Positions 27,481 to 32,125 of a stretch of 64,000 nucleotides of DNA are shown here, in pieces. Under the pieces are notes generated by a model. The model saw nothing but the letters and a program-made list of their open reading frames with translations. It was not told where the DNA came from and made no database searches. Each line of letters starts with the position of its first letter. Positions within the stretch are counted from its first letter, which is position 1. Origin of the DNA: a candidate division WOR-3 bacterium (GTDB taxonomy: Bacteria > Hydrothermota > Tepidihabitantia > SM23-42 > JAOAFX01); assembly GCA_039802005.1 (NCBI GenBank), contig JBDRVV010000007.1, forward strand, positions 1-64,000, in the 5' to 3' direction. Both the position numbers and the translations under genes were made by a program.

Positions 27481-28152
27481 TCATTTTTTTTGTTCTTCTT
27501 CAATATGGTGTTTGATTATTCTCGCCTGGCTTATGTAAATCGTATCCTCACAGATATTTGTTGAAAGGTCAGCAATCCTTTCCAGATTCTTCGCAACGAG
27601 AAAATATTGAATCGCCGAACCAATCTTTTCCGGCTCTTCAAGCATATATGTCAACATTATTCTGATAATTTCATTCCGCATTTCATCAACCGTGCTATCC
27701 CTTTCACAAACTTTTTGTGCTCTAACCGCATCATTTGTGACAAAACTCTCAACGCTCTCCTTGAGCATATCATTAACAATCCTTGCCATTGTCCAGATAT
27801 TGGATACGGGTTTTATCCTTGGTTGGTCAACGAGAAAAACAACACAATCAGCAATATTCACAGCGTGATCTCCCATCCTTTCAAGGTCATTATTCATTTT
27901 TATAACTCCTATGAGAAACCTTAGATCAGAACCCACTGGTTGGTGTCGGGCAATAAGTTCTATACACTTCTCTTCAATTGTTATTTCCATTTTATCAATC
28001 TTTTTATCAATATCCCTTATTTCACGGGCGAGTTTTATGTCCCTTTTTTTGAGTGCCTCCAGGGATTTAGTGATTGATTCTTCAACGAGTGTTGCCATTG
28101 TAAGGACTTCATTCTTCAAATTTTTCAATTCTTCATCAAAATAACCTGGCAT
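27481..28152 (-). CDS. phoU: Phosphate transport regulator PhoU
   Basis: The 223-residue protein has two PhoU three-helix repeats. Both carry the metal-cluster motif type E/DxxxD (IDKKIDKMEITIEEKCIEL and CERDSTVDEMRNEI), plus LIGVIKMNNDLERMGDHAVNIADCV and FLVAKNLERIADLSTNICEDTI. PhoU restrains the Pst transporter and the PhoR kinase when phosphate is plentiful. It is the last gene of the pst operon. phoB/phoR are not in the window. Confidence 0.95.
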   Translation of the reverse strand: MPGYFDEELKNLKNEVLTMATLVEESITKSLEALKKRDIKLAREIRDIDKKIDKMEITIEEKCIELIARHQPVGSDLRFLIGVIKMNNDLERMGDHAVNIADCVVFLVDQPRIKPVSNIWTMARIVNDMLKESVESFVTNDAVRAQKVCERDSTVDEMRNEIIRIMLTYMLEEPEKIGSAIQYFLVAKNLERIADLSTNICEDTIYISQARIIKHHIEEEQKK

Positions 28153-28166
28153 TGTGCCTCCTGTTT

Positions 28167-28916
28167 TTAACCAAATCTTCCGCTGATGTAGTTAAAAGTT
28201 CTCTCATCAGACGGATTTGTAAAAATCTTTTTTGCCTTATCAAATTCAATCAATTCACCAAGTAGCATAAATCCAACATCATCCGCAATCCTTGCAGCTT
28301 GCTGCATATTGTGGGTAACGATAACGATTGTATAATTTTTCTTCAATTCTATTAATAATTCCTCAATCCGAGCCGTAGCAATCGGGTCAAGGGCAGAACA
28401 GGGTTCATCCATTAATAAAATTTCTGGTTCCACTGCGAGTAAACGGGCAATACAGAGTCTCTGCTGGCGTTCTGGAGAAAGTGTGAGTGCTGATTTTTTC
28501 AGAATATCCTTTACTTCATCAAACATACCTACTGCTTTCAAAGAACGTTCTACGATTTCTTCAAGAACTTTTTTATTTGTAATATTCCAGACCCTTGGAC
28601 CGTATGCTACATTATCAAAAATAGAAAGGGGAAAGGCATTGGGGCGTTGAAATACCATTCCAACCTTTTTCCTTAAAAATATCAAATCACACAATGGAGA
28701 ATAGATATCCTCATTATCAATTATGACACTCCCAGTTATTTTAACATTAGGAATTAAGTCATTCATTCTATTGAATACCCGCAAGAGTGTTGATTTACCA
28801 CAGCCAGATGGACCAATCAATGCAGTAATGAGATTTTCTTTTATTTCAAGATTGATATTCTTAAGCGCCTGAAACTTATTATAAAAAAGGTTGAGATTCG
28901 TGGTTTTGATAATCAT
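28167..28916 (-). CDS. pstB: Phosphate ABC transporter ATPase PstB, degenerate signature motif
   Basis: The 249-residue ATPase has an intact Walker A (GPSGCGKST, 35-43), Q-loop (VFQRP, Q90), Walker B ([13 protein letters not shown]) and switch His (VTHN, H202). The ABC signature reads LSPER (146-150) instead of LSGGQ. It is preceded, with a 4-nt overlap, by a second PstB with the opposite pattern of defects. The two are 249 residues each and align without gaps at these motifs. They likely form a heterodimer under PstA/PstC with one consensus and one degenerate ATP site (see findings). Confidence 0.93.
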
Positions 28917-29662
28917 CCAAACCGTCCTATAATATAGTCATTTGTCCGTTTATCCTTTGGTACAGTAAATATCTGCTCGGTTGGTCCTATCTCAATGAGT
29001 TCACCATTTAAAAAGAATGCGGTCCTTGTGCTTACCCTTGCTGCCTGTTTTGTATTATTGGTAACAAGAATAAATGTAAATTTTTCTTTTAATGCAAGCA
29101 TTGTTTTTTCAATCTTAGTAGTGGAGATCGGGTCAAGTCCTGAGCAGGGCTCATCCATCATTATCACTTCGGGTTTGAGTGCGATTGTTCGTGCAATACA
29201 GAGCCTCTGCTGCTGACCACCAGAAAGACAGGATGCCGAGTCCCATAATCTGTCTTTGACTTCGTCCCAGAGCCCAGCCGAGGACAAAGAAAAATAAACG
29301 AGTTCATCAAGTTCTTTCTTTGTATATCTGTTGTGCATCTTAGGTCCATAGACAATATTTTTGTAGATAGTGCCTGGCAATACCACAGGTGTGGCAAAGA
29401 TCATCCCCACCTTTCTTCTCAATTCATTGATCGGTATCTCAGTTATATTAACTCCATCAAGTTTTATTTCCCCATCAGTTTTAGCACCATCCAATTCCGC
29501 GAGGCGGTTGAGTGTGCGGAGAAAAGAACTCTTCCCGGAATTTGCTGGTCCTATAATTGCTAATATCTCATTTGGATATATATCCAGGTTTATATTTTTC
29601 AAAGCATGAATGTCATCATAAAAAAGATTTAATCCCTTTATTGATATTTTAGGTGTAGCCAT
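28913..29662 (-). CDS. pstB: Second phosphate ABC transporter ATPase PstB, lacks Q-loop Gln and switch His
   Basis: The 249-residue ATPase has an acceptable Walker A (GPANSGKSS, 38-46), a canonical signature LSGGQ (146-150) and Walker B ([13 protein letters not shown]). The Q-loop reads MIFATP, with Ala at position 90 instead of Gln. The H-loop reads VTNN, with Asn at 202 instead of His; the codon is AAT. On its own it should hydrolyse ATP poorly, but it supplies an intact LSGGQ to its partner. It lies directly after pstA (2 nt) and overlaps the other pstB by 4 nt. Confidence 0.92.
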
Positions 29663-29664
29663 AT

Positions 29665-30507
29665 TTAATAATAACGGGCAATAAACCTGTGCATCAATCT
29701 ATAGGCAACGAAATTGATGATTAAGATGCTGATGATCAGGACGGTTGCAGTACCATATGCCTTGGACATTGATATTCCTTCGCGGGCAAGTATATAAAAA
29801 TGAACCGCAAGGGTGCGGGTTGATGAGAAAAGGTCAGTGGGCATATTCAAAGACGAACCTGCAGTAAATATAACAGCGGCAGTTTCGCTAACAGCCCTAC
29901 CAATGCCAAGGATTATGCCGGTAGCGATTCCCGGAAATGCCGTGGGTAAGACAATCTTGAGTATTGTATCAATCTTGCCAACACCTAAAGAATAACTTAT
30001 CTCACGATATGCACTAGGTACTGCCTTTATCGCCTCCTCTGATGTTCTAATGATTGTGGGCAGAATCATTACTGCAAGCGTAAAGCCACCGGAAAGTATG
30101 CTCCAGCCTAATTTTAATGTAATCACAAAAAAGATAAATCCGAACAGTCCGAATATGATAGAAGGGACACCAGCAAGACAATCTGCACCAAAACTGATGA
30201 TCCTTCTTACCCACCCACCTTTTGTATATTCGGTTAAATAAAGGGCTGTGCCGATACCCAAGGGAGTGGCAATTATGATTGCAACCAATGTTACCAGTAA
30301 TGTTCCAATTATTGAAGGGAATATACCTCCTTCTCTACCCATTGCCTTTGTGGGCTGGGTGAGGAATTCCCAGGTTATTGAAGAAAAACCGTTTTTAAAA
30401 ACAAAAATGATGACAAAGAAAAGGATAGATATTACAAAGATTGTGCATATCAATAAGCCAATATAGGCAATTATTTGACTTGTTCTTGGTCCGATTCTAA
30501 ATGTCAT
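29665..30507 (-). CDS. pstA: Phosphate ABC transporter permease PstA
   Basis: The 280-residue inner-membrane permease has six hydrophobic segments. The typical PstA stretches are 'GREGGIFPSIIGTLLVTL', 'GVPSIIFGLFGFIFFV', 'LPTIIRTSEEAIKAVPSAY' and the EAA-like 'GVGKIDTILKIVLPTAFPGI' that contacts the ATPase. It overlaps pstC by 4 nt. With PstC it forms the channel for phosphate. Confidence 0.95.
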   Translation of the reverse strand: MTFRIGPRTSQIIAYIGLLICTIFVISILFFVIIFVFKNGFSSITWEFLTQPTKAMGREGGIFPSIIGTLLVTLVAIIIATPLGIGTALYLTEYTKGGWVRRIISFGADCLAGVPSIIFGLFGFIFFVITLKLGWSILSGGFTLAVMILPTIIRTSEEAIKAVPSAYREISYSLGVGKIDTILKIVLPTAFPGIATGIILGIGRAVSETAAVIFTAGSSLNMPTDLFSSTRTLAVHFYILAREGISMSKAYGTATVLIISILIINFVAYRLMHRFIARYY

Positions 30508-31337
30508 TCTCTCCGTGCAATCCTTATTGCAAGAATATTTAAAATAATGATGATAATAAAGAGTATTGAACCACAGGCGAAGAGTGCAAGGCGGTGATCA
30601 CCAGTTGAATAACCAAGTTCTAATGCAATCGTTGAGGTGATTGTTCTTACCGAATCAAGGATTGAATGGGGAATTTTTAACGCATTTCCAGCAATCATGA
30701 TTACTGCCATTGTCTCACCTATCGCCCTGCCCATTCCCAGTATTATTGAAGCGATTATGCCGGAACGGGCGGCAGGGAATAAAACCATTAAGACAGTTTG
30801 CCATTTTGTTGCGCCAAGTGCAAAAGAACCTTCACGATATGTTTGGGGAACTGCAACGAGGGAATCATATGAAATGCTCACGATTGTTGGTAAAATCATA
30901 ATACCAAGGACAAGGCTTGAGGTAAGGATTGAGAAGCCAGAACCACCGAATGTTTCCCTTACCAGTGGAACAAGAATGACAATACCAATGAATCCATAGA
31001 CAACCGAAGGAATGCCGGCAAGTAATTCAATTATCGGTTTTAGTGTTTTCTGGACTGGGGGTGGAGAGAATTCTGCAAGGAATATTGCACATGCTAACCC
31101 AAGGGGGACGCCAACAATGAGTGCTCCAAATGTAACGAATAAAGAGCCGATTATCATTGAGGTGATGCCGAAATGTCCTTTTGTTGGTGCCCAGTGTGTT
31201 GAGAAGAAATTTTTGAATCCTGCCTTAAAAATAAGGGGTAGCCCCTGGGCAAAGATGAAGATTGTAATCAATAATAGCGATACTATCGCAGAGAAAGAGA
31301 TTATTAATAAAAGATTTTCCGACACTTTTTCTTTCAT
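30504..31337 (-). CDS. pstC: Phosphate ABC transporter permease PstC
   Basis: The 277-residue permease pairs with PstA. Typical segments are 'FGITSMIIGSLFVTFGALIV', 'GIPSVVYGFIGIVILVPL', 'ILPTIVSISYDSLVAVP' and the coupling loop 'GATKWQTVLMVLFPAARSGI'. The start overlaps the pstS 3' end by 4 nt. Confidence 0.95.
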   Translation of the reverse strand: MKEKVSENLLLIISFSAIVSLLLITIFIFAQGLPLIFKAGFKNFFSTHWAPTKGHFGITSMIIGSLFVTFGALIVGVPLGLACAIFLAEFSPPPVQKTLKPIIELLAGIPSVVYGFIGIVILVPLVRETFGGSGFSILTSSLVLGIMILPTIVSISYDSLVAVPQTYREGSFALGATKWQTVLMVLFPAARSGIIASIILGMGRAIGETMAVIMIAGNALKIPHSILDSVRTITSTIALELGYSTGDHRLALFACGSILFIIIIILNILAIRIARRE

Positions 31338-32125
31338 TTTTGAAATATGTTTGCCGGTATCAAACCTTCATGCATTAAAATTTCCTGGGCTTCGTCTGAC
31401 AGAACATAGTCAATAAATGATTTTATTGTGCCTTTTGGTTCTTCAAGGGTCAAAAGTAAAAATGGTCTTAAGAATTTATAACTGCTGTTTTTATAATTTT
31501 CGAGCGTCGGTGCAACACTATCTATTGATAATGCCTTTACCCTGTTATCAACGAGTCCTGCTGAGATATATCCTATCGCCTGTGGAGTATTTGCGACTAT
31601 TTCCCGTATCGCACCATTAGAATCCTGGACCAGGCAAGCATCACTTATCGCAGTCCCGTGCATTATCAATTCTTCAAATGCCCCCCTTGTTCCGGAGCCT
31701 TCTTCTCTTGTAACCGCATATATTTTTTTATCCGGTCCACCAACTTCTTTCCAGTTGGTGATTTTACCAGCAAATATGTCTTTTAATTCATCATGGGTTA
31801 AATTTTTGATAGGATTTGATGGATGCACAACGATTGCGATACCATCAATAGCCATTATGAATGAATGTAACCCCTGTTCTTCTGTATGGAGATTCCTTGA
31901 TGAAGTTCCAATTGCGCAGGTCTTATTAAATACTGCCTGGATGCCAGCAGTTGAACCACCACCCTGGACATTGATCTTGATATTTTTATTTTTTATCATA
32001 TATTCTTCAGCAAGTTTTTCTATAAAAGGCTGGACCGAAGTAGAACCAGCGATAACTAAATCACCGGTTCTTTTAGAACAGAATGTGAAAAGTATTAATG
32101 TTAACAATAATAGGTATCGGTGCAC
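31334..32125 (-). CDS. pstS: Phosphate-binding lipoprotein PstS
   Basis: The 263-residue solute-binding protein has a lipobox ending at Cys16 (ILFTFC). Phosphate-binding residues lie in IAGSTSVQPF, NVQGGGSTAGIQAVF and 'VTREEGSGTRGAFEEL' (Ser-Gly-Thr-Arg). The start is GTG at 32125, only 5 nt after its TAAAAT -10 box, so the whole operon begins with a leaderless GTG-initiated message. I see no obvious PhoB box in the ~70 bp upstream. Confidence 0.95.
   Translation of the reverse strand: MHRYLLLLTLILFTFCSKRTGDLVIAGSTSVQPFIEKLAEEYMIKNKNIKINVQGGGSTAGIQAVFNKTCAIGTSSRNLHTEEQGLHSFIMAIDGIAIVVHPSNPIKNLTHDELKDIFAGKITNWKEVGGPDKKIYAVTREEGSGTRGAFEELIMHGTAISDACLVQDSNGAIREIVANTPQAIGYISAGLVDNRVKALSIDSVAPTLENYKNSSYKFLRPFLLLTLEEPKGTIKSFIDYVLSDEAQEILMHEGLIPANIFQK

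Follow-up and report, generated by a model that had tools for sequence, protein, structure and literature searches.

Two adjacent PstB ATPases with reciprocal motif losses predict a heterodimeric Pst phosphate importer with one consensus and one degenerate ATP site

Analysis of a 64,000-nucleotide stretch of a candidate division WOR-3 bacterium (hereafter the window; contig JBDRVV010000007.1 of assembly GCA_039802005.1, positions 1 to 64,000), combined with surveys of related and distant genomes, points to a Pst importer that very probably operates via an obligate head-to-tail heterodimer of two distinct ATPases, PstB-A and PstB-B, having one hydrolyzing site and a degenerate opposite site. 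Pst is a textbook importer, and its ATPase is treated as a symmetric homodimer. In the system described here, the two PstB subunits carry reciprocal motif losses, and from this pattern we infer both heterodimerization and one-site hydrolysis. A preceding sequence-only reading of the window had predicted an obligate heterodimer of this kind (one consensus and one degenerate site), and the prediction is now supported, with corrections, by the conservation of the motif pattern and by the existence of genomes that encode no PstB besides the pair. The need of importers for two hydrolyzing sites is an open question, and the pair apparently represents a natural test case, as its two subunits can build no more than a single complete site. 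It may also provide a natural, separable motor/non-motor system for addressing one-site vs. two-site models, as well as the question of which half talks to PhoU.

The pair resides in an operon of the order pstS-pstC-pstA-pstB(A)-pstB(B)-phoU, encoded entirely on the minus strand (Table 1); pstS, pstC, pstA and phoU are each recognized by the respective NCBIfam model. The two 249-residue PstB reading frames recognized previously both exist where they had been placed, on the minus strand; they are arranged head to tail with PstB-A upstream and overlap by 4 bp (28913-28916). PstB-B passes the cut-off of the PstB equivalog model TIGR00972 (380 vs. 343.2 bits). PstB-A of the source locus scores just below the same cut-off (322 vs. 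343.2 bits) and calls for an annotation correction: TIGR00972 is still its best model, and it is nearest to PstB both in the tree and by fold. By family, the system is a Pst phosphate importer, for which phosphate import is predicted. Among the 80 related loci, many of which are cut by contig ends, PstA is present in 76, PstC in 72 and PstS in 70, and phoU adjoins the pair in 54 of the 61 related loci with room for it.

Table 1. Genes of the pst operon and diagnostic motif residues of the two PstB subunits in the window
Feature	Coordinates	Strand	Remark
pstS phosphate-binding protein	31334..32125	-	TIGR02136, 244.1 bits
pstC permease	30504..31337	-	TIGR02138, 296.3 bits
pstA permease	29665..30507	-	TIGR00974, 282.5 bits
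pstB-A	28913..29662	-	Degenerate nucleotide side (N41, A90, N202), signature LSGGQ intact
pstB-A N41 codon	29540..29542	-	Position 4 of Walker A, where canonical PstB has Gly
pstB-A A90 codon	29393..29395	-	Q-loop Gln lost
pstB-A signature LSGGQ, residues 146-150	29213..29227	-	Intact
pstB-A N202 codon	29057..29059	-	H-loop His lost
pstB-B	28167..28916	-	Walker A/Q/H motifs intact, signature LSPER degenerate
pstB-B Gln90 codon	28647..28649	-	Q-loop intact
pstB-B signature LSPER, residues 146-150	28467..28481	-	Degenerate; Glu149 at 28470-28472
pstB-B His202 codon	28311..28313	-	H-loop intact
phoU	27481..28152	-	TIGR02135, 229.4 bits

In ABC transporters, ATP sites are shared: one NBD contributes the Walker A/B motifs and the Q- and H-loops, and its partner contributes the signature (PMC7756269). 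The residues on which the heterodimer had been proposed (A90 and N202 next to LSGGQ in PstB-A, Q90 and H202 next to LSPER in PstB-B) are all right, as checked at the level of codon coordinates. The proposed list of changes was nevertheless incomplete, having missed N41, which stands in place of the fourth-position Gly in the Walker A motif of PstB-A (GPANSGKSS). The Walker A Lys, the Walker B Asp-Glu and the D-loop Asp are intact in both subunits. A complete hydrolyzing site would thus combine Walker A/B, Gln90 and His202 of PstB-B with LSGGQ of PstB-A, and the opposite site would combine Walker A (with N41), A90 and N202 of PstB-A with the LSxE signature of PstB-B. Judged by these motifs, one composite site is fully consensus and the opposite site is degenerate, with changes in both contributing subunits.

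A motif tally was obtained for 140 PstB-A, 134 PstB-B and 51 canonical PstB proteins (after removal of identical sequences), whose counts do not represent independent events, as each lineage seems to have arisen once; the classes were sorted by the motifs themselves, and the independent part of the evidence lies in the order and adjacency of the genes and in the partner's motifs. At the consensus composite site, PstB-B retains the Walker A Lys, Q, H, Walker B D and E, and D-loop D (each in 134/134), and PstB-A retains the signature SGGQ (140/140). At the opposite site, the Q-loop Gln is found in none of the 140 PstB-A proteins (Ala at position 90 in 138) and the H-loop His in a single one (Asn at position 202 in 139), while the fourth position of Walker A is occupied by N in 126, H in 10, S in 2 and G in 2 of them; the Walker B Glu and the Walker A Lys of PstB-A are each preserved in 139/140. 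The facing PstB-B signature has kept its first Gly in 6/134 and its second Gly in 1/134 proteins, the latter being replaced by Glu in the remaining 133. The conserved feature of this signature is, therefore, the Glu at the second Gly and not the Pro seen at the source locus. Canonical PstB proteins have every motif intact (51/51), and PstB-A precedes PstB-B in all 124 distinct loci with both genes full-length. Chance or a local oddity is ruled out by the surveys of relatives and of other phyla, since the reciprocal pattern recurs across these 124 distinct loci and the changes occur in 0/51 canonical PstBs.

A search of 61 genomes revealed the pair throughout the family and order, as well as in one other family of the class, with the same reciprocal motif set in every locus where both genes are present and the motifs were read. 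A phylum-wide profile search, which separated PstB-A (at least 390 bits) from other PstBs (at most 341 bits) with the exception of one 163-aa contig-end fragment, detected PstB-A in 36 genomes of the WOR-3 phylum, and the reciprocal partner is adjacent in 35/35 of the genomes whose PstB-A was read at the sequence level. A wide scan of 84,980 species genomes, with the Walker A to Q-loop region of PstB-A as a query, matched at least 584 stretches. The best 80 of the matched loci, nearly all of which show the reciprocal pattern, come from about 15 phyla judging by record title, an approximate number because such labels are not always correct for metagenome bins (WOR-3/Stahlbacteria, Omnitrophota, Planctomycetota, Elusimicrobiota, Bacteroidota, Ignavibacteriota, Aminicenantes, Spirochaetes, Armatimonadota (Zipacnadia), Hydrogenedentota, Firestonebacteria, Auribacterota, Desantisbacteria, WOR-1, Microgenomates and Chloroflexi). 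A survey of 117 Omnitrophota genomes, based on whole-protein PstB-B and PstB-A profiles and less tied to the motif query, identified PstB-A in 45 genomes, 44 of which have an adjacent reciprocal PstB-B, whereas in the 45th the signature is cut off by the end of the contig; those single canonical PstBs of this phylum that were read keep every motif. The co-occurrence of the two change sets in relatives, suggested earlier as a check of the heterodimer, is thereby confirmed in both phyla, and the search for genomes with only one of the two PstBs changed found none.

The sequence-only reading had also named a third, fully canonical pstB as potential counter-evidence. One such gene is indeed present in the source genome (2.54-Mb assembly), at C37:15516-16253, as part of another pst operon with phoU and a response regulator gene downstream, and its product could in principle mix with either subunit. 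This finding does not refute the heterodimer, given that the intact pair is the only PstB in 12 relatives (four of them single-contig assemblies: G009, G011, G016 and G018) and that in 28 Omnitrophota genomes no PstB beyond the pair is detected at E 1e-80. In the 61-genome search, 14 genomes yielded only two PstB matches, corresponding to the pair, with PstB-B partial in two of them. Rescue of the system by a third canonical PstB was rejected, as many genomes are without one. With no other PstB available in the 12 relatives and the 28 Omnitrophota genomes, neither homodimer is a likely engine; as the operon is intact, import could be expected to be powered only by the mixed dimer of the two subunits.

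In a tree computed with motif columns removed, PstB-A forms one clade (support 100/99), and the data are compatible with a single PstB-B clade as well (AU p 0.45; 97 SH-aLRT in a quick tree, likewise with motif columns removed). Between-genome distances of A and B correlate (r 0.57, Mantel p 0.0005). The tree length amounts to ~16 substitutions per site per group, with A90, N202 and E149 near-invariant throughout, and the PstB pair is apparently old. Both genes are under purifying selection, with dN/dS of 0.03-0.12 in comparisons with estimable dS (dS >=0.1). In the trees of PstA and PstC, the asymmetric systems did not separate cleanly into one clade (2 changes, several long branches), and for this reason co-inheritance of the permeases is not claimed.

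Several alternative interpretations of the reciprocal losses were considered. Relaxed selection or decay following duplication would be compatible with motif losses as such, and is rendered scarcely credible by the low dN/dS values and by the near-invariance of A90, N202 and E149 across about 15 phyla, in line with the original argument against decay. A general tendency of tandem pstB genes to drift toward degenerate motifs was likewise rejected, as both copies of the Listeria tandem pair, which served to control for the effect of tandem duplication itself, are canonical. The existence of two separate homodimers, A:A and B:B, with different jobs could be envisioned by analogy with E. faecalis, where tandem pstB copies play unequal, non-overlapping roles (PMC12096839). 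We consider it very improbable: both sites of an A:A dimer would lack Q and H, and both sites of a B:B dimer would lack the signature, only A:B having a complete site, yet these proteins are the sole PstBs in the pair-only genomes mentioned above, and the E. faecalis analogy is weak because Firmicutes pairs keep their motifs. In E. coli, the Q160K substitution in the PstB signature motif abolishes Pst-dependent Pi uptake (PMC5775613), so that a B:B dimer, in which the signature is altered, would not be expected to support transport.

A heterodimer in which both sites hydrolyze ATP and the changed residues only tune the rate would agree with the retention of the Walker B Glu and the Walker A Lys in nearly all PstB-A proteins. 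Nevertheless, a single site combines the loss of the Q, the H and the fourth Gly of Walker A with that of the facing signature, an accumulation to be expected only at a site no longer under selection for hydrolysis, whereas the partner site is essentially without loss; we regard this possibility as improbable.

The preferred model, a heterodimer with a single hydrolyzing site, is consistent with structural predictions. PstB-A and PstB-B are predicted as intact NBD folds (pLDDT 94.1 and 93.7, respectively), and the best PDB matches of PstB-A are to the E. coli PstSCAB ATPase (9k3x and 9k3s, TM 0.89-0.94). In the proposed mechanism, a single ATP consumed at the PstB-B site in each cycle would drive the PstC/PstA gate, and PstB-A would be a structural or regulatory half. 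Given the retention of Lys44, Asp170 and Glu171, the opposite site would probably bind ATP or stay partly closed, and it would hydrolyze poorly or not at all. PstA of the source locus has Ser173 in the EAA-type stretch taken as the coupling helix; 89% of asymmetric systems have Ser at this position, 19/20 canonical PstA proteins have Ala, and no comparable change passed the same threshold in the corresponding stretch of PstC; docking of PstA on PstB-A is weakly suggested. A more speculative elaboration, which we consider possible although rather unlikely, is that the degenerate site is a dedicated regulatory/sensing site, with one PstB as the motor and the other as the sensor. Ala90, Asn202 and the facing Glu149 would then maintain a bound nucleotide, or an empty and partly closed state, which sets how the transporter reports phosphate to PhoU/PhoR, with PstA docked on PstB-A.

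A comparison with known systems revealed partial similarities to each of them, as well as distinct differences. The described system resembles E. coli PstSCAB in operon organization (pstS-pstC-pstA-pstB-phoU), family models, predicted fold (TM up to 0.94) and the PstC/PstA heterodimer, and differs from it in having two PstBs with reciprocal losses, whereas entries 9k3x and 9k3s each list one PstB sequence with two chains. The tandem pstB1/pstB2 genes of Firmicutes (E. faecalis, PMC12096839; Listeria) share the adjacency and the pst-phoU operon context, but both copies keep Walker A, the signature and the H-loop, without a degenerate site. The parallel with heterodimeric exporters (TAP, TM287/288, TmrAB and ABCC7/CFTR; PMC7756269), drawn already for all but TmrAB in the sequence-only reading, holds for the layout of different NBDs with a consensus and a degenerate site and for changes in the signature and H-loop. 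It does not extend to the loss of the Walker B Glu, which is usual (not universal; ABCG5/G8 differs) in the degenerate half of such exporters (PMC7756269): PstB-A keeps this residue, and the losses here affect the Walker A Gly, the Q-loop, the H-loop and the signature. In addition, the membrane part consists of separate PstA/PstC importer permeases and not of exporter-type membrane domains. RbsA and NupO of B. subtilis (PMC11466899) are also importer components with one degenerate ATP site, but their NBDs are fused in one polypeptide, belong to another family and have lost the Walker A Lys. Overall, degenerate-site heterodimers are known mainly from exporters and degenerate importer sites from fused NBDs (PMC11466899). 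No description of reciprocal PstB motif loss was found in a search of the open-access literature.

A number of loci depart from the standard arrangement. Most PstB-A genes lacking a neighboring partner, when followed individually, have PstB-B elsewhere in the genome or at a contig edge. In Endomicrobia (Endomicrobium and relatives) the pair is split with both members kept, being separated by an inserted gene in L122 and located on different contigs in L128, L130 and L132; both genes are present, on different contigs, in Endomicrobium genomes G148, G150 and G151, and PstB-B lies near contig edges in G149 and G154. No PstB-B partner was detected in three drafts with PstB-A, namely G152 (with PstB-A itself interrupted at the end of a contig), G153 (draft size 0.7 Mb) and G275 (PstB-A followed by an unrelated gene). 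In two single-contig WOR-3 assemblies (L079/G005 and L057/G021), PstB-B is a partial match, with the N-terminal part missing in one and the C-terminal part in the other, perhaps due to assembly indels. A Chloroflexi bin (L114/G147) contains a divergent PstB-A (GPAHSGRST, DAPTSG, VPHS) with an LDSGQ partner ~4 kb away on the opposite strand and a canonical PstB elsewhere in the genome, possibly representing a decaying or rearranged version of the system. Finally, five Omnitrophota loci (L222, L224, L225, L226 and L228) reveal a further PstB-like group located away from the pair and characterized by an LS[LIVT]GQ signature and an xQ[RK]PxxLPMS Q-loop; the two members of this group placed in the tree cluster together.
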